A DNA stretch of 64,000 nucleotides from Chitinophagaceae bacterium (GTDB lineage: Bacteria; Bacteroidota; Bacteroidia; Chitinophagales; UBA10324). The position numbers were made by a program, and so were the translations under genes. The notes beneath the pieces were generated by a model, which searched no databases, was not told the origin of the DNA, and was given only the letters and a program-made list of their open reading frames with translations. Location: contig CANJII010000004.1 of the NCBI GenBank assembly GCA_947474435.1, positions 1 through 64,000 of the forward strand, read 5' to 3'. Positions 33,577-44,738 of the stretch are shown in pieces (the first letter of the stretch is position 1; each line of letters opens with the position of its first letter).

Positions 33577-34347
33577 TCATTTTTCATAAATAAATACTGT
33601 AGTATTATATTTTACAAATTGCTTTTTATAATTGATGGTCAGGTTATCAAGCAAACAAAAAACAGGTAGTGCAAATTTTCCAAAAAACAGTTTCTTATTC
33701 CATAAACTCATACCCCTTGACGGAACGCGCATAACCGGTTTAACCGCAATTTTCTTAAATCCGGTAACCGATTCAATTAATCGCATGTAGTTTTCTTCGG
33801 TTCTGTATATGTGTTTTTCATTTGACTGTGTTTTACGCATGGTTTGTTCAAATAGAAATATGCGCCCTCCTTTTTTAAGCACACGATAAAATTCTTTCAA
33901 ATACAAAACCAACATTTCATCAGAGATGTGTTGTAAAACCCAGTGCGAAAAAATTTTATTGAATGAATTATCCTGGTTTGGAATTAATGTTCCGGACAAA
34001 TGTTCGAATGAAACATTTGTGAAGTTTCGCGTTTCGTTATTCGCAATTTCTAACATGTTTTTTGAAATGTCAATTCCTGAAATATTCTTTACATGCGGGG
34101 CTAAAAAAAAAGTAACCCTTCCTACACCACAACCAAAATCAAGAACCGAATCATTTTTTTGTGGGTTAATATTTTTATATAAATATTTTTTGGTGAAATA
34201 ATCGCGATAAACATTTGCGTGAACAGCTTCTTTTGTTTGGCTCACATCTAATACGGCATTAATATTTTTATGCGAATTTGCGGTACTATCAAAAAAAGAT
34301 TCTACTTCCCTGCTGTCAATCCCCCCATCCTTTTCATGATTTCCCAT
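33577..34347 (-). CDS. SAM-dependent methyltransferase (paralogue of 36493-37263)
   Basis: A 256-residue class I methyltransferase with motif I VLDFGCGVGRVTFF, motif post-I GIDISKNMLEIA and ISFEHLSG; the C-terminal half has IFLFEQTMR and KPVMRVPSRGMSLWNKKL. The end shows the same order and residues as the methyltransferase at 36493. Substrate may be a sugar or lipid acceptor of the surface glycan. The ATG at 34347 lies 46 nt inside the preceding FemAB-like gene, so the two are coupled. Confidence 0.9.
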   Translation of the reverse strand: MGNHEKDGGIDSREVESFFDSTANSHKNINAVLDVSQTKEAVHANVYRDYFTKKYLYKNINPQKNDSVLDFGCGVGRVTFFLAPHVKNISGIDISKNMLEIANNETRNFTNVSFEHLSGTLIPNQDNSFNKIFSHWVLQHISDEMLVLYLKEFYRVLKKGGRIFLFEQTMRKTQSNEKHIYRTEENYMRLIESVTGFKKIAVKPVMRVPSRGMSLWNKKLFFGKFALPVFCLLDNLTINYKKQFVKYNTTVFIYEK

Positions 34348-35348
34348 AGTGTATTTTTTATCGGGTTAAAAATATATGTTTTTTTATAGGAAGGTAGTTC
34401 AGTTAATCCAAACCCTTTTTTAAATCCGGTAATTCCAATCGAAAATTTTTTGTTGTCTTCATTTCCTTCTTGTGCAACTTGTCCGAAATAAAATTTACAT
34501 ATTTTTTGTTGTCTAAATAATTTCATTAATTCATAATATAAATAATGTCCTGCGCCGATGTCATTTTTTATGCTTCCGCCAAATAATGAATATGCATTTG
34601 TTCCGTATTTAACAAAAAGCGAAACAGCTAATATTTCGTTTCCTCTTTTTACCTGATGAGTTGAAAGTTCAAACTTTCCAGATAACAGGTTAAAATACTG
34701 ATCGGTTAATTTTTTGTGCGGGGGTGGTTTTACAGGAATCTGCTGACTAAATATTTTTTTAAGTGTTTCATGAAATAAATCTGAATCATTTAATTCTGAA
34801 AATTCTAAATTATTATCGAGTGCTTTCTTTAAATTCCGTTTAGTGTTTCGGTTAAACTTATTATAAAATTGGTCTCCATTATCTTCACATAAATCCACAT
34901 AGGCTGAATTAAAATGAAAATCATCCTTGCTTTTGAAATTAAATTTTAATAACAATTCAGGGTTACCATAAACGCCATAAATCTGTGCAGAAACTATTTG
35001 TTCATCTTTAATAAATTGGTCAACTGCGGTCTGAAGTTTTAAAATTCTTTTTGCAATTTCCGTTTGGTCTGTAATTAAGGGATCACAAATCAATTCGCCA
35101 TATTGAAAAATAAATTTTGAAACTGCTTTCGAAATATTTCCGAGCTTAATGCTCTCCCAATAATAAATTTTTACTCCGGCAATTAATTTTTCAGCCTCCC
35201 ATAATTCAAAATATATCGGTTTGTTCTTGTATAAAGATTGAATTTGATCGTATATGGTGTTTTGAAAAAAATTAGAATTGAGTTCAGCAAGTTCATTCCA
35301 TAAAAGTTTATTACTCGATTCCTGTTTTGAAACAATTATTGAAGACAT
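34302..35348 (-). CDS. FemAB-like acyl/aminoacyl transferase (GNAT fold), paralogue of 40172-41221
   Basis: A 348-residue protein of the FemAB/GNAT type used in cell-surface glycan modification: NELAELNSNFFQNTIYDQIQ, WEAEKLIAGVKIYYWES, FNRNTKRNLKKALDNN, VKYGTNAYSLFGGSIKNDIGAGHYLYYELMKLF and FSIGITGFKKGFG. The order matches the BioF2-like/peptidoglycan bridge family. Substrate not known: an N-acyl group or amino acid for a sugar is likely. No signal peptide; probably acts on the cytoplasmic face. Overlaps the next gene by 46 nt. Confidence 0.8.
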   Translation of the reverse strand: MSSIIVSKQESSNKLLWNELAELNSNFFQNTIYDQIQSLYKNKPIYFELWEAEKLIAGVKIYYWESIKLGNISKAVSKFIFQYGELICDPLITDQTEIAKRILKLQTAVDQFIKDEQIVSAQIYGVYGNPELLLKFNFKSKDDFHFNSAYVDLCEDNGDQFYNKFNRNTKRNLKKALDNNLEFSELNDSDLFHETLKKIFSQQIPVKPPPHKKLTDQYFNLLSGKFELSTHQVKRGNEILAVSLFVKYGTNAYSLFGGSIKNDIGAGHYLYYELMKLFRQQKICKFYFGQVAQEGNEDNKKFSIGITGFKKGFGLTELPSYKKTYIFNPIKNTLWEIMKRMGGLTAGK

Positions 35349-35491
35349 TTTAATATAAACGGGTTAACTGATTTGTTGGAGGTAAAACTAATTTAGAAAT
35401 GAATTAAGAAAATCAAACAGGCATTTTTGTTTTAACTGCACAAAATCTAATTCATTATTAAAATGCTGTTAATATTGTGTTTTTAAAAATC

Positions 35492-36394
35492 ATGAGACCA
35501 ACAACTGTAATTTATAAAATTTTTAAAAAGGCAATTCGGGTTACCCTATTTAAAAAAAGTTTGTTTTCTGTAATTAAATTATTGGGAATTCCTCCAAAAA
35601 AAATACGTAGAGAATTAAAATTCAATGGCGCTTTTAAAGTTGATGTTGGAAAATCTTCTTTTCAATTAATGAATTATGATTATGATAAATTTTCGCTTGA
35701 AAATGATGTGTTTTGGTTTGGGTTAAAAGGATGGGAACCTGAAAGCATTAATCTCTGGGTTCAATTAAGTGGTGATTGCAAAACAATTTTAGATATTGGT
35801 GCAAACACCGGAATCTATTCGTTGATTTCTGCAGCTATTGCACCCACAGCTGTTATCTATTCTTTTGAACCGGTTGACAGGATTTATGATAAATTTCAAA
35901 AGAATATTTTGATAAATAAATTTTCAACTATTCATCCTGAAAAAATTGCACTGTCTGATAAAAATGACTTCACGATACTATATGATTTTGTAGGAGACAT
36001 TCCACTGAATGCAACATTAAACAGCAGTTGGCACGGTGACAGTGCAGCACGGGTTGAAAAAAAAATTGAAACTAAAAGACTTGATTTATTCATTGAAGAA
36101 AACCATATTTTAAATATTGATTTAATGAAGATTGATGTGGAATTACATGAGCCACAGGTATTAAGAGGTATGGGAAAATATTTAGAGAAATTCAAGCCAA
36201 GTATCTTAATTGAAATTTTCAATGAAGATATGTGGAATCAACTTCAGGATATTATTAAGGATTTAAATTATCAGGTTTTTTACATTGATGATTTGAAAGG
36301 TGCGAGAAGAATCAGTAGATTTGAAAATTTTGATGGTTATAATTTCCTTTTTTGTAAAGAGGAAACAGCTAAAAAAATATTTTCAACCAAGTAA
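35492..36394 (+). CDS. FkbM family methyltransferase
   Basis: A 300-residue protein starting from ATG 35492 (a GTG at 35477 would add five residues). It has the FkbM block TILDIGANTGIYSLISAAIAP with YSFEPVDRIYDKF, then KRLDLFIEENHILNIDLMKIDVELHEPQVLRGM and LIEIFNED. FkbM enzymes methylate hydroxyls, here most likely of a sugar in the surface polysaccharide. It is the only plus-strand gene in this island; the minus-strand methyltransferase genes flank it. No signal peptide. Confidence 0.9.
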   Translation: MRPTTVIYKIFKKAIRVTLFKKSLFSVIKLLGIPPKKIRRELKFNGAFKVDVGKSSFQLMNYDYDKFSLENDVFWFGLKGWEPESINLWVQLSGDCKTILDIGANTGIYSLISAAIAPTAVIYSFEPVDRIYDKFQKNILINKFSTIHPEKIALSDKNDFTILYDFVGDIPLNATLNSSWHGDSAARVEKKIETKRLDLFIEENHILNIDLMKIDVELHEPQVLRGMGKYLEKFKPSILIEIFNEDMWNQLQDIIKDLNYQVFYIDDLKGARRISRFENFDGYNFLFCKEETAKKIFSTK

Positions 36395-36492: not shown

Positions 36493-37263
36493 TCAGGCCT
36501 TTTTAATTTCAACTGCATAATAATAATAATCAACAAATTGAGGTTTTCTTTTCAGTGTTGCCTTTTCTAATAAGTACAAAAACGGCAGTAAAAAAGAAAA
36601 ACGAGCGCTCATTTTTTTCCAAATCATAATTGAATAAGAAGGCATTCGAATGGCAGGCTTTAAAACAGAAATTTTGAACCCGTGTTTTTCAAAAATATTT
36701 TTCAGGTGCTCATGTGAACGCATAATTACCTCATTATTTTGCGAAAGGCTTTTATCGGTTTTGAGGTATTCAATTAAAGTTATTTTTCCATTTGGTTTTA
36801 ATCCGGCAAAAATTTTTGGTAAAATAATATCAAGCAATTCATCGCCTATATGCACTAGCGTACCAACAAAAAACAGTTTATCAAATTGTACCGATGGCAA
36901 ATCAAATTTTTCAGAATTAAGTTGAAGAAATTCAATGTTGTTGGCGTTACTTTTTTGTTGCCTTTTTTTTGCAATAGCCAATAATTCAGGTGTAATATCC
37001 AATCCATATATTTTTTTTACCAATGGCGCTACTATATAAGTTAACCGACCAACTCCACAGCCAAAATCAATAACAACATCGTTTTTATCTGGCTTCATAT
37101 ATTCAAGAAGTGCTTGGCGCGTGAGGTAGTCAATTATAATGTTTATGTGTCGCGGATCAAATGTTATTGAACCATTGAGCACGGCATTTTCATCACCGTG
37201 AAAATCGGCTCGCGTTTTATATAGTTTCAGAACTTTCTCTACTGATGGTTGAATGTTTTCCAT
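36493..37263 (-). CDS. SAM-dependent methyltransferase (paralogue of 33577-34347)
   Basis: A 256-residue class I methyltransferase: VVIDFGCGVGRLTYIVAPL (motif I), GLDITPELLAIA, VGTLVHIGDELLDIILP, GKITLIEYLK and the tail KPAIRMPSYSIMIWKKMSARF followed by LLEKATLKRKPQFVDYYYY. The tail matches the paralogue at 33577, pointing to duplication within the island. Start ATG. No signal peptide. Probably modifies a glycan precursor. Confidence 0.9.
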   Translation of the reverse strand: MENIQPSVEKVLKLYKTRADFHGDENAVLNGSITFDPRHINIIIDYLTRQALLEYMKPDKNDVVIDFGCGVGRLTYIVAPLVKKIYGLDITPELLAIAKKRQQKSNANNIEFLQLNSEKFDLPSVQFDKLFFVGTLVHIGDELLDIILPKIFAGLKPNGKITLIEYLKTDKSLSQNNEVIMRSHEHLKNIFEKHGFKISVLKPAIRMPSYSIMIWKKMSARFSFLLPFLYLLEKATLKRKPQFVDYYYYAVEIKKA

Positions 37264-37474: not shown

Positions 37475-38620
37475 CTAATTTCCAAAAACATCAAAGTTCC
37501 CTTTTGCTGAATCAAGTTTTGCTCTTAGAAAAGTGGAGTCGGAATATTGATTCAAATAAGCATCTTTTCGTAGCAAATGGAGGTAAAGTTTCAGATATGA
37601 TTTTTCACTACCGTGCACTGCATCAATCATTTCAATGGTACTGCTTCCATAATTTTCAGCGTTCAGAAAATCATAAACACGAAAACCATAATCGCGAAAT
37701 ACAGGAGAAATTTGTTCTTGCAATTTAAAAAAGTGGGAATAATCACTATCGTTTTTTTTCATTTCAAACAATACCAATTCATCAACTGGAGGCAGAAATC
37801 CGGTAACGCTTATTTTATGTTTTTTACAAAATCGTAATAGCATTCGCAGTTCATTTAAAGCATTTCTATCAATGGTTATGCTTTTTCTGAAAATTCCATA
37901 GTCAGCTTTCACACTATCAACCGAATTTAAAATTTTGTTTTTTATTGTTTTTCCATTCGCAATAATATTTCCATATGCCCGGCTTCCGTCTTTTCTATAC
38001 CCGAATGCAGCCATTCGCCCGCTTATTCCAAACCATTCAACATCGCCATCAGACTCTTGCCATATTTTTTTCAAAATTATTTTTCCATTCCACCAATCAT
38101 AATAAAAGTTTTGCCACGATTGCATTCCATTCCAATTGTCGGCCCACGAAAACTGATTGTAAACCAAATCGTTTTTTGTTTTCATTGCCGAATCATACCG
38201 TGCATTGAACCACCACTGATCTAACCCTACAATTATTGTTTGCGGCAAATTTTCTTCGGGTATCGATTCTAAAAAGGCGCGCAATTGTTGCAGTCGTTTA
38301 AATACTCCACCTGCTGTATAAAACGGAATTGAGTCTTTAAAAAATGAAGCCCGGAATTGCAGCATTCGAGAAGCCCCTAATGCCATAACTTTTGGCGAAA
38401 TATTTTCAACCGCCAACAATCTGAATTTATGTGGGAGGTTTGAATAAGCTGCACCAAAAATAAAATTCCGCCTTTCTACTGTTTGTGCTTTAACGGTTTT
38501 GTTGAACCAGAATATTTCTCCACTCTTATAAAATACCACAATGGTGAAGATTGTTAAAATAGTATAAGGCAAAATAAAACTAACAAATCTTGGAATAAAT
38601 TTTTTTATTTCTCTGTTCAT
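37475..38620 (-). CDS. Membrane-anchored SGNH/GDSL-like acyl-transfer partner (AlgX/DltD-like)
   Basis: A 381-residue protein with one N-terminal membrane segment (about 12-30) and a periplasmic SGNH-type domain: MALGASRMLQF with Ser84 as the likely nucleophile, IIVGLDQWWFNARY, and a C-terminal DAVH (Asp333, His336) dyad. It follows the MBOAT gene by a 1-nt stop/start overlap (TGATG). MBOAT-SGNH pairs transfer acetyl or other acyl groups to exopolysaccharide or LPS (AlgI/AlgX, DltB/DltD style). Low overall similarity to any named family, so the class is an inference. Confidence 0.72.
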   Translation of the reverse strand: MNREIKKFIPRFVSFILPYTILTIFTIVVFYKSGEIFWFNKTVKAQTVERRNFIFGAAYSNLPHKFRLLAVENISPKVMALGASRMLQFRASFFKDSIPFYTAGGVFKRLQQLRAFLESIPEENLPQTIIVGLDQWWFNARYDSAMKTKNDLVYNQFSWADNWNGMQSWQNFYYDWWNGKIILKKIWQESDGDVEWFGISGRMAAFGYRKDGSRAYGNIIANGKTIKNKILNSVDSVKADYGIFRKSITIDRNALNELRMLLRFCKKHKISVTGFLPPVDELVLFEMKKNDSDYSHFFKLQEQISPVFRDYGFRVYDFLNAENYGSSTIEMIDAVHGSEKSYLKLYLHLLRKDAYLNQYSDSTFLRAKLDSAKGNFDVFGN

Positions 38621-40047
38621 CAGAATTGAAAGTAGATGAATTGTGTATTATTAAAATTGCCGAATGCAAGAATTGCGATGATTAATAAATGATAGGCAGA
38701 AATGCGCAGCCACCTTGGCTGGTTTTTTAACAGGCTGTAAAACTCATTGTTCTTAATAAACCACTGCACAATTTCTAAAACAATTATACCGGCAAAAAGA
38801 AAATATAGACTGTTAGCTCCGGCGATGTTGATCTGTGGATTTGAAAAGTTTAAATGACCTAAGGAAGAAATTATACTGAATGCATCATGCATTGAAACGG
38901 AGCGGAAAAAAATCCATGTAAAGCAAAGAAATGAAAAGGTGAGTATTGTACTTAACATGCCATAGAGCTGACCTGGAATTTTTTTTGCCCACCTGCGTCG
39001 TGCCCTTCGGGAAGAATATTCATAAATCATTGCCACTCCATGCATCATTCCAAAAACAATAAAAGTCCAACGGGCACCGTGCCATAATCCGGCAAGTAAA
39101 AAAACTACTGTTAAAGAAAACACGGCTCCTGACTTCCAGTTTCTGGTACTTGTCATTAGTGGCTGAAACAAATAATCGTTAAACCACGACGAAAGCGATA
39201 TGTGCCAACGGCGCCAAAACTCAGTTATGTTATGGCTTATAAATGGCCGATCAAAATTTTTCATTAACCGAAACCCCATTACTCTGGCTGCACCAATGGC
39301 AATGTCGCTGTATCCGCTGAAGTCGCAGTAAACCTGATAGGCAAAAAACACAGTGGCCACTATCACTGAAAAACCTTCGTGTTTTCCCGGATTATTAAAA
39401 ACTTCATTAACATAAACAGCAAGACGATCGGCTAATACTAATTTTTTAAAAAACCCCCAGGCCATTTGTTTCAACCCATCAGTTACCTGATTATAATTAA
39501 AGTTATGCGATTCATAAAACTGATGAATCAGATTTTGTGGCCGTTCTATTGGTCCGGCAACTAATTGAGGATAAAACATAACATATAATGAATAGATGCC
39601 GAAATTTTTTTCAGCTTTCTGGTTGCCTCTGTAAACTTCAATAACATAAGCCATACTTTGAAAAGTGTGAAACGAAAGCCCGACCGGCAGAATTATTTGA
39701 TAGACATAGGATGGAACATTATAATTAAATTGATGGGCCACAACAGAAAATGTTTCTGAAAAAAAATTGAGGTATTTAAAAACAATAAGTATTAATAAGG
39801 TTGAAATTAAACTTGCCACAAATAAAAGCTTTCGCTTAAATCCGGTTTGCCGCTCCATTAAAAGTGCGGCGAGGTAATCAACAACGATGGTTAGTCCGAG
39901 AATAAAAATATAAACCGGAACAAATGCCATGTAAAAACAACAACTGGCAAGCAATAACCAAAACCACCTGAAGCGATGTGGCAACAGAAAATAAATGATT
40001 GATACTAAAGGAAAAAAGAAAAGAAAAGAAAAGGAGTTAAAAAGCAT
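38620..40047 (-). CDS. MBOAT family O-acyltransferase (AlgI/DltB-like)
   Basis: A 475-residue polytopic membrane protein with around ten hydrophobic spans. Signatures: AGPIERPQNL, DFSGYSDIAIGAARVMGF (242-261), FWRRWHISLSSWFNDYLFQPL (277-297) and LLAGLWHGARW with catalytic His323. This is a full AlgI/DltB-type MBOAT. It passes acyl groups across the membrane to the SGNH-like partner encoded directly downstream. A 124-nt gap separates it from the FemAB-like gene. Substrate is a surface glycan or lipid, not known. Confidence 0.96.
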   Translation of the reverse strand: MLFNSFSFLFFFPLVSIIYFLLPHRFRWFWLLLASCCFYMAFVPVYIFILGLTIVVDYLAALLMERQTGFKRKLLFVASLISTLLILIVFKYLNFFSETFSVVAHQFNYNVPSYVYQIILPVGLSFHTFQSMAYVIEVYRGNQKAEKNFGIYSLYVMFYPQLVAGPIERPQNLIHQFYESHNFNYNQVTDGLKQMAWGFFKKLVLADRLAVYVNEVFNNPGKHEGFSVIVATVFFAYQVYCDFSGYSDIAIGAARVMGFRLMKNFDRPFISHNITEFWRRWHISLSSWFNDYLFQPLMTSTRNWKSGAVFSLTVVFLLAGLWHGARWTFIVFGMMHGVAMIYEYSSRRARRRWAKKIPGQLYGMLSTILTFSFLCFTWIFFRSVSMHDAFSIISSLGHLNFSNPQINIAGANSLYFLFAGIIVLEIVQWFIKNNEFYSLLKNQPRWLRISAYHLLIIAILAFGNFNNTQFIYFQF

Positions 40048-40171: not shown

Positions 40172-41221
40172 CTAAGCCTGCGATTTGACAAATATTTTTT
40201 TTAAAATATTCCACATCTTTTCCTGAGTTGGTTTCAGTGCGTATCCCATGTGGTGCGTATTATATTGTTGTGCTCCGAATCGTAATTTGAATTTTGTAAT
40301 TCCATCACTGAATTTCAAATTTGATTCTGTTTTTTTAAGCGCTGTTTCGCCTAATAAATAGTTCTTGAACCCTTTTGCTTTCAGGTATTTAATAATTTCC
40401 CAATGAAGAAACTGGCCTGCTCCAATGCTGTTTTTAAAAGTACCCCCGAAATTATAAAGCGAATTTTTTCCGTAATTATATAATAACGCACTACATAAAT
40501 ATTTTCCGTTGTGTTTTGCAAAAACCAATTGAGCTGAATTATTGGCCATTAAAATTTCATATTCTTTCCTGATAACTTTTTTATTAGGTGCATGTACACT
40601 TTGATTTTTATAGGTTTCATCCATCAGTAAAAAAAAAGAATCAATGTCATTAACAAATTCAATGGTCACTCCGTTTTTTTCAGCTTTAACTATTTCGCTC
40701 CGGTGTTTTGGGTGAATTGCTTGCCAAAGTGTTTCGGTGTTTTTTGTTAAATCAATTTTCGCAATTGCAATGTTGCTTTGCCTAATTATTTTTTTTCTAG
40801 TTAACGCAAGAAGTTTTTCAGGTTCGCCAAAAAAGCTATAGGAATAAAATGCGGTTGTTTTTTTTTCAGCCAGCCAATTTTCAAACTCTTGAGTCAATGC
40901 ATCAATGATTTGTTTTAAATCAAAATTTGCTGATTCGTTAAATAAAATTTCGCTTCCCTGTGTTGCCAATGAACTTATGCTCCTGATTATTGCAGGAAGT
41001 TTTTTTGATTCATAGTAATATATTTTAACTCCGGCAATAAGGACTTCCTTACTATAACATTGAAAATACCATGGGCGATTATTAAAATTTAATTGTACTT
41101 CATCAGTAAAATCAGCCTGCCATATATTACCACACAGTTCCGCCAGTTTGTTCCACTCTATTATGTTCTGTGGTTTGTTTTCAGAAATAACAATCTGTAA
41201 ATTAAGTTCAGTGTCTGTCAT
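40172..41221 (-). CDS. FemAB-like acyl/aminoacyl transferase, second copy
   Basis: A 349-residue protein of the same family as 34302-35348: EWNKLAELCGNIWQADFTDEV, CYSKEVLIAGVKIYYYESK, IHPKHRSEIVKAEKNGV, LYNYGKNSLYNFGGTFKNSIGAGQFLHWEIIKYL and SDGITKFKLRFGAQ. The shared blocks AGVKIYY, FGG, and NSIGAGQFL / NDIGAGHYL show common ancestry. It overlaps the fusion gene by 14 nt and is likely co-translated. Probably adds an acyl or amino acid to an amidated sugar made by its neighbour (inference). Confidence 0.8.
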   Translation of the reverse strand: MTDTELNLQIVISENKPQNIIEWNKLAELCGNIWQADFTDEVQLNFNNRPWYFQCYSKEVLIAGVKIYYYESKKLPAIIRSISSLATQGSEILFNESANFDLKQIIDALTQEFENWLAEKKTTAFYSYSFFGEPEKLLALTRKKIIRQSNIAIAKIDLTKNTETLWQAIHPKHRSEIVKAEKNGVTIEFVNDIDSFFLLMDETYKNQSVHAPNKKVIRKEYEILMANNSAQLVFAKHNGKYLCSALLYNYGKNSLYNFGGTFKNSIGAGQFLHWEIIKYLKAKGFKNYLLGETALKKTESNLKFSDGITKFKLRFGAQQYNTHHMGYALKPTQEKMWNILKKIFVKSQA

Positions 41222-44200
41222 AAATTTCCTGCTTCAATTCACTATAAAGCTCCAGCAATTTATGCTGTTCGTTTTCCCAGTTTAAAATGCGCCGGGCATC
41301 TGTTACATTTCGTTTATATGCTTCCTTGTTTTTTTCTAATTCTAAAAACCCATTGTAATATGCATTGGGTTCATCGGCATTGACACAAACGCCAATTTTA
41401 TATTGTTCAATTATTTCGCGATGTTCCGGTTGTGCCGATGCAAGTATTGGCAACTCAGCCATTACATAATGAAAAAGTTTATTTTCCAACCCAAGCCAGT
41501 AACTCATAAACTGTTTGTTCCAGGTGCTCAGTAATCCATAATCGGCCTGACATAAAACGGCTACAATTTCATTCGGCTGAATGGCTTTGTGAAAATAAAT
41601 ATTCTTATATCCGGCATCGTTCACCCATTGCATAATTTCTTTTTTGTTTCCTCCTTCATCGCAAATGAAAACTAAAGCTACGCCGGGTTTATTTGCAAAT
41701 TCTCTTATGGCGGCTTCAATATTTCTCGACCTCCAGTAAATGTTCAAAGAAAAATTCAGCACCATTCTGGTTTCTTTTTCAATGCCTAATTCTTCTCTTA
41801 AAAATGTTTTTCCGATTGTGGCCTCTTCATATTCAGCCATGTTTCTCACAATTACAGGAACATTTTTTAATTGCAGGTATTTTGATAAATCATTGCCAAG
41901 AGATTTTGAAACGGTAATTAACCGGTCAATTGTTGCGGCTGATTTTTTTTCGCGCAATACTTCCATTTTTCTTACTACATCGGTTTTTAACCGAACCCAC
42001 GCCGATGCATGGTTGCCATAATTAATTGGCCACGAATGAAACAATTCGTGCGAATCATAAATCAATTTTATTTCGGGTCTCTTTTCTTTCACTTTTGATC
42101 CGATGAATAGCATTAATTGATCGTGACAGTGAAGTATATCAAATTGTTCACGACTTATGATTTCTGCACTTCTGATTCGCATGCCATAATTTTTGAAGTC
42201 GGAAACCGATTTTTCAAAAACTCTTTTTATAACAATTCCATCCAGTACATCGTGAATGGGCAAGTCGTCGCGCTTAACGGCATAAATTGTTAATGGATAA
42301 CCAGCATGAACAAGTGTAAGAGCTTCGCGATATACTCTACTATCCATGGTGAAAGCATTATCGAGCAGCATGGCAATTCGCGGAAACACAAATGATGATT
42401 GTATAATATTTGTTGATTTCCGCTGTACAATCCCATCATAAAAATCAATCAGAATTTTGCTTTCGTTTTCCCAATTCAATTCCTTTTTTGCCTCCTCAAA
42501 ATTTTGCAGGTACTGATTTTTATTTTGTATTAATTTTTGCCATCCGCTATAGTATGCTCCCGGGTCATCGGGATTTATACAAACGCCTAACTCATATTTT
42601 TCTACAATGGCTTTGTATTCCGGTTGCGCGGTTGACAGCATGGGAATTTCCGCCATCAGGTAACTGAAAAGTTTATTGTCGAGTGCGTACCAATAACTTA
42701 AATCGCGTTTATTCCATGTAGGAATTAATCCGGCATCGCACCCCGATAAATAGTTGGTAATTTCCTTATAGGCAATTACATCGTTGTAAAAAATATTCGA
42801 ATATTTTTTTGATTTTGCGTATTCTTCAATTTCCCTTCTGTGCTCATCGGGTGAACTGATAATAACAAATGCCAGATCCGGTTTATTGCCGATTTCATCC
42901 AGCACTTGTTTCATGTTCAATGTTTTGAGGTAGATGTGTTCCCCAATGAAAACAAGAATTTTTTGGTGCTCAGGAATAGAAAATTTTTTGCGAAGAATAT
43001 TTTTTCTTTCCTCCATTACATCATGGTCAGGAACATTTCTGATGACCAGTGCATTGGTTTTTAATTTGAAATATTTTTTCAATACATCGGCCAGCGATTG
43101 GTTTACGGTTATTAAATAATCAATGCCTTTTGTGCCTAATTTTTTTTCTCTGAAAATCTGAATTCTTCTTACAATAAATGATTTCAGTATGATGCTGAAA
43201 CTTTTTCCGCTGAAATTTAATGGCCAAGAATGAAACAACTCGTGTGAATCATAAATTAAAATGGTTTGCGGATTTATTTTTTTCACCATTGCTCCAAGGT
43301 TCAGCATCAGGTGGTCATGACAATGTATAATATCAAAATTTCCTGATGCAATGTGCTGCGCTATACTCCGGAGTTTTTTATAAGATTGAATCTTGAAAAT
43401 ATCGCGTGGAATAACCCGTTCAATTTTTACTTCATTCACAATTTCGCGAAAAGGTAAATCCGGATGCTTCATGCAAAACAGTGTTAAATCAAAATGTTTT
43501 GCAATGGCGTATGCTTCTCTTTTCACCCGGTTATCGTTAATTAACGGATTATCGAGAAGCATGGCAACTCGCTTACTTTTTTTAATATCTTTTGTTGAAA
43601 TAAATTTTTCTTCGAGAAATATTTTTTTAACAATTCTTGTTAATGGCCTTATTTTTTTAAACAGATTTAAAATAGATGGATAACTGGTGTGCGCAACTTG
43701 GGGGAGTGCAATAATTTTATCAAATTCAGATTCAGTGAGTCCGAATTTTTTTAGCACATACACTTTATCTTCTTCTAACTTTTTTTCATCAATGGGTGAT
43801 TTGCTTATTTCAATCAATGCATCTTCACGGGATAGCTGACCGGAACAAATCATGGTTGAGAGGTGTGAGCGTCTTTTATCTACATGAAATTTTACAGGTA
43901 AAATGTACGATTGAAAAAAACGAGTGATGATTGATTCGTAGTGCTTGCCTTCGTAATCGCGCCAACTTAATTTTTCACTAATAATTTTTTTTGCTTCCTT
44001 TTTATTGTAGTTCACATGATCCAGAATCCGGATGTATTGAATGCCTTGGATTCTTTCGTAGTATTCTTTTTTCAAAAACCCGAGTGTAGGAAATGTTTTA
44101 ATTTTTCCATTACCAAATTTTCTAAAAATTGCCTTGATGTTTACCAAATCATTTTTATTGTGAATCCATTGTTCCGGCAAAATTCCTTCGGTGGCCAAAT

Positions 44201-44738
44201 TTTCGCCACTTAAAATGTACTTAATATTAAACTTGTTTGCAGTTTTATAAAGTGTGGCAAAAATGGCGTGGTCTGATGTTGCTTCAATATCAATAACCGA
44301 CGCTTTTAAATAGGCCAATTGTAAGTCCCTGAACTCGTCCCAGTTAATTACATGTGTATATAAATCAATGCCGAGTTTGAGCAGAATATTTGAAATGTTG
44401 CTTACCGCCAATTCTGAATTCCAACCGTTATCGCAATGTACAGCCAGTGGTCGAAGTCCTAATTCTTTAACGAGAAAGGCTACATAAGTGCTGTCTACTC
44501 CGCCGCTTACACCTATTATGCAATCGTATTTTTTTCCTGCGCCTCTTCTTTTTATTTCGGTTACAAGTTGAGTTAAATTCTTTTCAAGTTCATCTGGCAA
44601 TGAAATTCTTTCACTTACAACTTTATCGTATAAATGGCAGTGATTACAAACTCCTGATTCATCAAAATAGATTGCAGGATCGTCAATGGTAGATAGTATG
44701 CAGCGGGTGCAAATCTGGAATGCTCGGTTCGATTGCAT
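41208..44738 (-). CDS. Three-domain fusion: sugar amidotransferase (WbpG/PseA-like) + two GT4 glycosyltransferases
   Basis: A 1176-residue protein from the ATG at 44738 (a TTG at 44750 would add four). Domain 1 (about 1-376) is an N-acetyl sugar amidotransferase: Cys10-x-x-Cys13 and Cys31-x-x-Cys34 zinc pairs, PP-loop VSGGVDSTYV (Ser78-Ser83), HCDNGWNSE, then YILSGENLATEG and WRDYEGKHYES. Such WbpG/PseA-type enzymes use ATP and an amide donor to install an amidine-type group on a sugar. Domains 2 (about 389-771) and 3 (about 785-1176) are tandem GT4-like glycosyltransferases, each with VAMLLDN, (I/L)HCHD(H/Q)LML, YDSHELFHSWP and a C-terminal QPE acidic motif. A single protein holding all three is unusual. 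No HisH/HisF-type partner is in the window. Confidence 0.92.
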   Translation of the reverse strand: MQSNRAFQICTRCILSTIDDPAIYFDESGVCNHCHLYDKVVSERISLPDELEKNLTQLVTEIKRRGAGKKYDCIIGVSGGVDSTYVAFLVKELGLRPLAVHCDNGWNSELAVSNISNILLKLGIDLYTHVINWDEFRDLQLAYLKASVIDIEATSDHAIFATLYKTANKFNIKYILSGENLATEGILPEQWIHNKNDLVNIKAIFRKFGNGKIKTFPTLGFLKKEYYERIQGIQYIRILDHVNYNKKEAKKIISEKLSWRDYEGKHYESIITRFFQSYILPVKFHVDKRRSHLSTMICSGQLSREDALIEISKSPIDEKKLEEDKVYVLKKFGLTESEFDKIIALPQVAHTSYPSILNLFKKIRPLTRIVKKIFLEEKFISTKDIKKSKRVAMLLDNPLINDNRVKREAYAIAKHFDLTLFCMKHPDLPFREIVNEVKIERVIPRDIFKIQSYKKLRSIAQHIASGNFDIIHCHDHLMLNLGAMVKKINPQTILIYDSHELFHSWPLNFSGKSFSIILKSFIVRRIQIFREKKLGTKGIDYLITVNQSLADVLKKYFKLKTNALVIRNVPDHDVMEERKNILRKKFSIPEHQKILVFIGEHIYLKTLNMKQVLDEIGNKPDLAFVIISSPDEHRREIEEYAKSKKYSNIFYNDVIAYKEITNYLSGCDAGLIPTWNKRDLSYWYALDNKLFSYLMAEIPMLSTAQPEYKAIVEKYELGVCINPDDPGAYYSGWQKLIQNKNQYLQNFEEAKKELNWENESKILIDFYDGIVQRKSTNIIQSSFVFPRIAMLLDNAFTMDSRVYREALTLVHAGYPLTIYAVKRDDLPIHDVLDGIVIKRVFEKSVSDFKNYGMRIRSAEIISREQFDILHCHDQLMLFIGSKVKEKRPEIKLIYDSHELFHSWPINYGNHASAWVRLKTDVVRKMEVLREKKSAATIDRLITVSKSLGNDLSKYLQLKNVPVIVRNMAEYEEATIGKTFLREELGIEKETRMVLNFSLNIYWRSRNIEAAIREFANKPGVALVFICDEGGNKKEIMQWVNDAGYKNIYFHKAIQPNEIVAVLCQADYGLLSTWNKQFMSYWLGLENKLFHYVMAELPILASAQPEHREIIEQYKIGVCVNADEPNAYYNGFLELEKNKEAYKRNVTDARRILNWENEQHKLLELYSELKQEIYDRH

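Follow-up and report, generated by a model that had tools for sequence, protein, structure and literature searches.

A putative N-acetyl sugar amidotransferase fused to two tandem GT4 glycosyltransferase domains in a small group of Bacteroidota

The window, a 64,000-nucleotide stretch of a Chitinophagaceae genome, encodes a protein in which a WbuX-type amidotransferase is joined to two GT4 glycosyltransferase domains. This three-domain enzyme probably makes an acetamidino sugar and builds it into a cell-surface glycan with HisH and HisF2, encoded on another contig, as ammonia donor in trans, and the coupling of amidation to glycosyl transfer is a plausible role for the fusion. WbuX-type amidotransferases and their HisH/HisF2 partners are already known; the fusion of WbuX to two GT4 domains bears on when the acetamidino group arises during glycan assembly.

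41208-44738, minus strand: fusion ORF, WbuX-GT4(A)-GT4(B), 1176 aa (ORF reading, Pfam, NCBIfam, orthologues)
43710-44717, minus strand: WbuX/WbpG/PseA-like N-acetyl sugar amidotransferase domain, residues 8-343 (TIGR03573)
44700-44711, minus strand: first zinc pair, C10-x-x-C13 (cysteines invariant in seven orthologues)
44637-44648, minus strand: second zinc pair, C31-x-x-C34 (invariant in seven orthologues)
44490-44507, minus strand: PP-loop SGGVDS, residues 78-83 (conserved in seven orthologues, V/I at position 4)
42417-43583, minus strand: GT4 domain A, residues 386-774 (Pfam GT4 and group 1 models; clade A 100/99)
42663-42665, minus strand: Ser692 in KLFSY of GT-A, at the second-Glu position of EX7E (S/N/A in orthologues)
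41232-42386, minus strand: GT4 domain B, residues 785-1169 (Pfam Glyco_transf_4 and Glyco_trans_1_4; clade B 100/99)
41469-41471, minus strand: His1090 in KLFHY of GT-B, at the second-Glu position of EX7E (H in all seven orthologues)

The reading frame runs from an ATG at 44738, coding down to 41211, to a stop codon at 41208-41210 without any internal stop, as the earlier note had described for a single 1176-residue ORF. A missed stop or a fusion made by the assembly, which that note had named as a possible refutation, is ruled out by six stop-free, full-length orthologues in other genomes, namely all five other genus members examined (G001-G005) and one member of a different genus (G010), which are 65-79% identical to the fusion; because these copies are uninterrupted, the fusion is not an assembly error. 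Across seven orthologues, 50% of positions are invariant in WbuX, 41% in GT-A and 52% in GT-B, as are 1 of 25 and 1 of 12 positions in the two short linkers. Where estimable, dN/dS was 0.04-0.15 for all three domains, values that are rough because synonymous sites are near saturation, and by this measure all three domains are under purifying selection. AlphaFold2, run on the fusion as a single sequence, gave a mean pLDDT of 34, too low to use. A search for related loci among genome contigs returned two weak GT matches and nothing else.

The amidotransferase domain is the sole WbuX copy in the window's genome and scored 305.6 bits against TIGR03573 (curated cut-off 203.2), covering model positions 2-343 of 344. 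N-acetyl sugar amidotransferases (NASATs) are defined by an SGGXDS PP-loop and a tetracysteine motif (PMC10607449), and both are present: the cysteines C10, C13, C31 and C34, together with G29, fit the pattern CXXC-Xn-[GN]XCXXC (G29-V-C31xxC34), and the PP-loop reads SGG[VI]DS in the seven orthologues. The earlier claim that the zinc cysteines and PP-loop are intact thus stands, with near-invariance across the orthologues. In WbuX enzymes, ammonia is used to turn the N-acetyl group of a sugar into an acetamidino group, a reaction that probably consumes ATP and yields AMP and PPi (PMC10607449), and the NASAT family has a single crystal structure and sparse biochemistry (PMC10607449). In a PDB search, LpNASAT (8wex) was the only match for the WbuX part. 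On this evidence the domain is a NASAT-family enzyme, for which amidination of an N-acetyl sugar is predicted from the family. Phylogenetically, the fused WbuX domains of the window's family cluster (92/73) beside G078.

The C-terminal two-thirds matched PF13439, PF13692 and PF00534 above cut-offs in two stretches each (approximately residues 386-774 and 785-1169), giving both lobes expected from the Pfam GT4 and group 1 models; together with the TIGR03573 match, this bears out the description of an amidotransferase followed by two tandem GT4 enzymes. Neither domain reached the WcaI equivalog level (43 versus 800 bits), and a PDB search with GT-B found no match. The second Glu of the EX7E motif has a role in donor binding in GT4 enzymes. 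It is kept in the standalone GT relatives G056 and G030, but is replaced by S, N or A in GT-A and by H in GT-B, so the claim that the GT motifs are all intact was not fully right. Since this residue is replaced, sugar-nucleotide binding by GT-A and GT-B may be altered or lost, and their donor binding may differ from that of the standalone relatives. The first Glu is missing even from the standalone relatives, and the separately encoded glycosyltransferase GT-C has Ser at the second-Glu position, as does GT-A. The other GT4 blocks (HCHD, DSHELF, TWNK..SYW and NKLF) are near-invariant in the GT domains, which probably add the amidated sugar and its neighbour to a surface glycan.

Both GT halves share the block YDSHELFHSWP (residues 496 and 894; near-invariant in seven orthologues), as previously noted, but the internal duplication that had been read from it is not supported. 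The block also occurs, with small changes, in standalone GT relatives and is subfamily-wide. In addition, GT-A is no more similar to GT-B than to GT-C (pairwise identities of 42% for A/B, 44% for A/C and 39% for B/C), and the tree, which recovers each of A, B and C as a clade (100/99), weakly prefers to join B and C (88/85). The evidence for internal duplication as the sole origin thus falls short, with an A+B clade that is not rejected (AU p 0.118) leaving room for it. In the sister genus (G007), the domain order is not the same: a permuted protein of approximately 1008 aa (L034 1156-4182) reads GT(B)-WbuX-GT remnant. Its N-terminal GT is a fully supported member of clade B; at the C-terminus stands a short degenerate N-lobe, for which GT-A is the best BLAST match, although phmmer does not distinguish GT-A from GT-B there. 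From these arrangements, the WbuX-GT-A order seems to be the older, with GT-B joined at different ends in different lines, and the decay of the C-terminal GT to an N-lobe remnant in G007 implies that one GT is dispensable.

The most likely ammonia source for the fusion is HisH/HisF2 acting in trans. The earlier observation that no HisH/HisF-type donor lies nearby holds for the window but not for the genome, where hisH and hisF sit with a PIG-L deacetylase gene and GT-C on contig C61, and the suggestion that the donor is open is accordingly not borne out. The genes of G001-G005 run as PIG-L deacetylase, GT-C, hisH, hisF, fusion, FemAB-like gene, methyltransferase, MBOAT and partner gene, the last of which is truncated in G002 where the contig ends. 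In G010 the hisH-hisF-fusion segment is followed by the downstream block, which lacks the methyltransferase there, and a PIG-L-sized gene and GT-C stand on another contig. In all six of these relatives hisH-hisF thus lies directly upstream of the fusion, as it does upstream of the permuted protein in G007. Standalone WbuX loci also usually have hisH and hisF adjoining or close by, and Pseudomonas aeruginosa PAO1 carries the GT gene wbpH, wbpG, hisF2 and hisH2 one after another (PMC4783410). In a transposon study of Sphingomonas, the genes that affected an exopolysaccharide phenotype included members of all three families, WbuX, HisF2 and HisH (PMC11340318). The HisF on C61 (5678-6412) scored 347.8 bits against NF038364 (AglZ/HisF2 acetamidino; cut-off 310), fell below the cut-off for the histidine-pathway HisF and is the only full HisF-like gene in the window's genome. 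Because it is of AglZ/HisF2 type, is the only full HisF-like gene and belongs to a genome that gave no match to hisD at an estimated completeness of 99.9%, this HisF is unlikely to serve histidine synthesis. Within the family, all 10 genomes with WbuX also had HisF2 and none of the 6 lacking WbuX did, genomes being counted without kinship correction and the ten including the G007 HisF2, which at 286 bits is below the curated cut-off. As a separate observation, the lack of a hisD match suggests histidine auxotrophy of the window's organism.

The window retains the fusion, the FemAB-like gene, the MBOAT gene and the partner gene.

40172-41221, minus strand: FemAB/GNAT-like acyltransferase, its start overlapping the fusion stop (PF13480; TIGR03019 below cut-off)
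38620-40047, minus strand: MBOAT O-acyltransferase, the next gene of the syntenic block (PF03062; syntenic in relatives)
37475-38620, minus strand: MBOAT partner gene, AlgX/J-like by position only (syntenic in relatives)
36493-37263, minus strand: SAM-dependent methyltransferase (domain search, synteny)

The FemAB-like gene keeps its syntenic place in every relative that carries the fusion, and the MBOAT partner gene had no Pfam or NCBIfam match. The methyltransferase that stands between the FemAB-like and MBOAT genes in the genus relatives is closer to the window gene at 33577-34347 than to that at 36493-37263. The window thus holds two related methyltransferase genes (33577-34347 and 36493-37263), two FemAB-like genes (34302-35348 and 40172-41221) and an FkbM methyltransferase gene (35477-36394), and these FemAB-like/methyltransferase pairs and the FkbM gene look like a local duplication. 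No nucleotide-sugar genes were found in the cluster; searches with PF01041 and PF02719 located aminotransferase and epimerase/dehydratase genes on other contigs, which did not identify the substrate.

In the proposed mechanism, HisH would hydrolyse glutamine, as expected from its family, and the ammonia would pass through the HisF2 barrel to a WbuX domain docked in a presumed physical complex. WbuX would activate the N-acetyl group of the sugar with ATP, releasing AMP and PPi, and ammonia would take the place of the oxygen, yielding the acetamidino group. GT-A and GT-B, tethered to WbuX, would then extend the growing chain with the amidated sugar and a neighbouring one; GT-C, a third paralogous GT encoded just upstream of hisH, could add another, and the glycan product may be decorated by the FemAB-like acyltransferase, the methyltransferase and the MBOAT encoded in the operon. 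In the window's genome, where the operon is split between hisF and the fusion, HisH and HisF2 would act in trans from C61. A stronger version, at present improbable, is an assembly line of four active sites in which amidation occurs during or after glycosyl transfer, the intermediate is passed from WbuX to both GT sites and ammonia comes from docked HisH/HisF2. If this were true, the reason why WbuX has repeatedly been joined to enzymes of glycan assembly would be that amidation takes place at the assembly stage and not on the free nucleotide sugar.

Several other explanations bear on this scheme. The separation of hisH/hisF from the fusion could be an assembly error in a genome whose operon is intact, a view favoured by the six of six relatives with hisF directly upstream and by the draft state of the window's genome (98 contigs). 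However, both breakpoints lie inside contigs and not at contig ends; colinearity with the relatives ends precisely at the hisF stop codon, where the last HisF codons differ from those of the relatives and run into unrelated sequence, and on the fusion's upstream side only the leader TTAAGTTTGCG is kept before unrelated sequence begins. An error is therefore unlikely, and a rearrangement is the likelier cause of the split, which placed hisH/hisF on C61 and thereby hid the donor from a reading of the window alone. The case illustrates how an operon split can conceal such a donor.

The fusion itself might serve a simpler purpose than coupling. It is possible, if on the doubtful side, that WbuX acts on a free nucleotide sugar, that the GTs play no part in this amidation and that the fusion merely fixes the ratio of co-expression without channelling. 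Most bacteria, and most of the loci read, have WbuX as a gene of its own, and no conserved interface is visible in the linkers because they are short and hardly conserved, whereas the apparently independent WbuX/glycan-assembly fusions in several families of the class suggest a benefit from proximity, with which co-expression is also compatible. Less probable still is an active WbuX with one or both GT domains catalytically dead or scaffolding, holding the amidotransferase to a glycan-assembly complex. The replacement of the second EX7E Glu in all orthologues of both domains, its retention in G056 and G030, and the degenerate C-terminal GT of G007 would fit such a loss, but the near-invariant remaining blocks and low dN/dS in both GT domains argue against it, as does the presence of the same Ser in the separately encoded GT-C. 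An active fusion supplied with ammonia in trans by HisH/HisF2 remains the preferred reading.

Among order, class and phylum samples (handles up to G1108; best two candidates per genome scored in the wide samples), WbuX-GT4-GT4 was not found beyond the window's family. As sampled, the architecture is clade-restricted within a small group of Bacteroidota and the fusion is not widespread, and a literature search of openly licensed papers, with subscription papers outside its scope, found no account of it. The statement that the three activities are normally separate genes was nevertheless incomplete, as fusions of WbuX to one other domain (X-WbuX) turn up repeatedly across several families of the class, with the partner N-terminal to WbuX (L092-L095, L096-L104). 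These comprise GT4-WbuX proteins of approximately 797 aa in g322 (four loci read) and g410 (two), an N-terminal domain of approximately 370 residues in proteins of 736 aa (G897, G919 and G923; no Pfam match in the one of three tested), an N-terminal domain of approximately 290 residues (G1012 and G958; no Pfam match in the one of two tested), a hexapeptide acyltransferase-WbuX (G1076) and a half GT4-WbuX (G1070). No full HisF2- or HisF-like match was found in the genomes of the last two (fusions at L096 5946-7730 and L103 6502-8280, respectively). A PIG-L de-N-acetylase (L026 3253-3885, L093 6322-6954 and L097 4497-5135) also recurs next to WbuX fusions outside the family, where it shows identities of 63% and 49% to the G001 copy, and this recurrence suggests a role in the pathway. 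Together with the fusion described here, the several apparently independent amidotransferase-GT fusions are ready-made natural constructs for studying the coupling of amidation to sugar transfer.

WbpG (P. aeruginosa O5), WbuX (E. coli O145) and LpNASAT share with the fusion the tetracysteine motif, the SGGXDS PP-loop and the TIGR03573 match, and WbpG has HisH2/HisF2 neighbours, like the operon of the fusion's relatives. In contrast, these three enzymes stand alone, whereas the fusion carries two C-terminal GT4 domains. The AglZ/HisF2 (NF038364) system with HisH is represented by the above-cut-off hisF on C61 and by the order hisH-hisF-WbuX in the relatives, but in the window's genome it is on a different contig from the amidotransferase. 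WcaI-like GT4 enzymes (NF007640, TIGR04007) are the best sub-cut-off matches of GT-A, GT-B and the separate GT-C, although the scores are far below the cut-offs (75 of 276 and 43 of 800 bits) and the second EX7E Glu is replaced here. Finally, the g322 and g410 proteins also join a GT4 to WbuX in Bacteroidota, but they have one N-terminal GT, apparently of another GT4 subfamily and with EX7E intact, and probably represent an independent fusion event.
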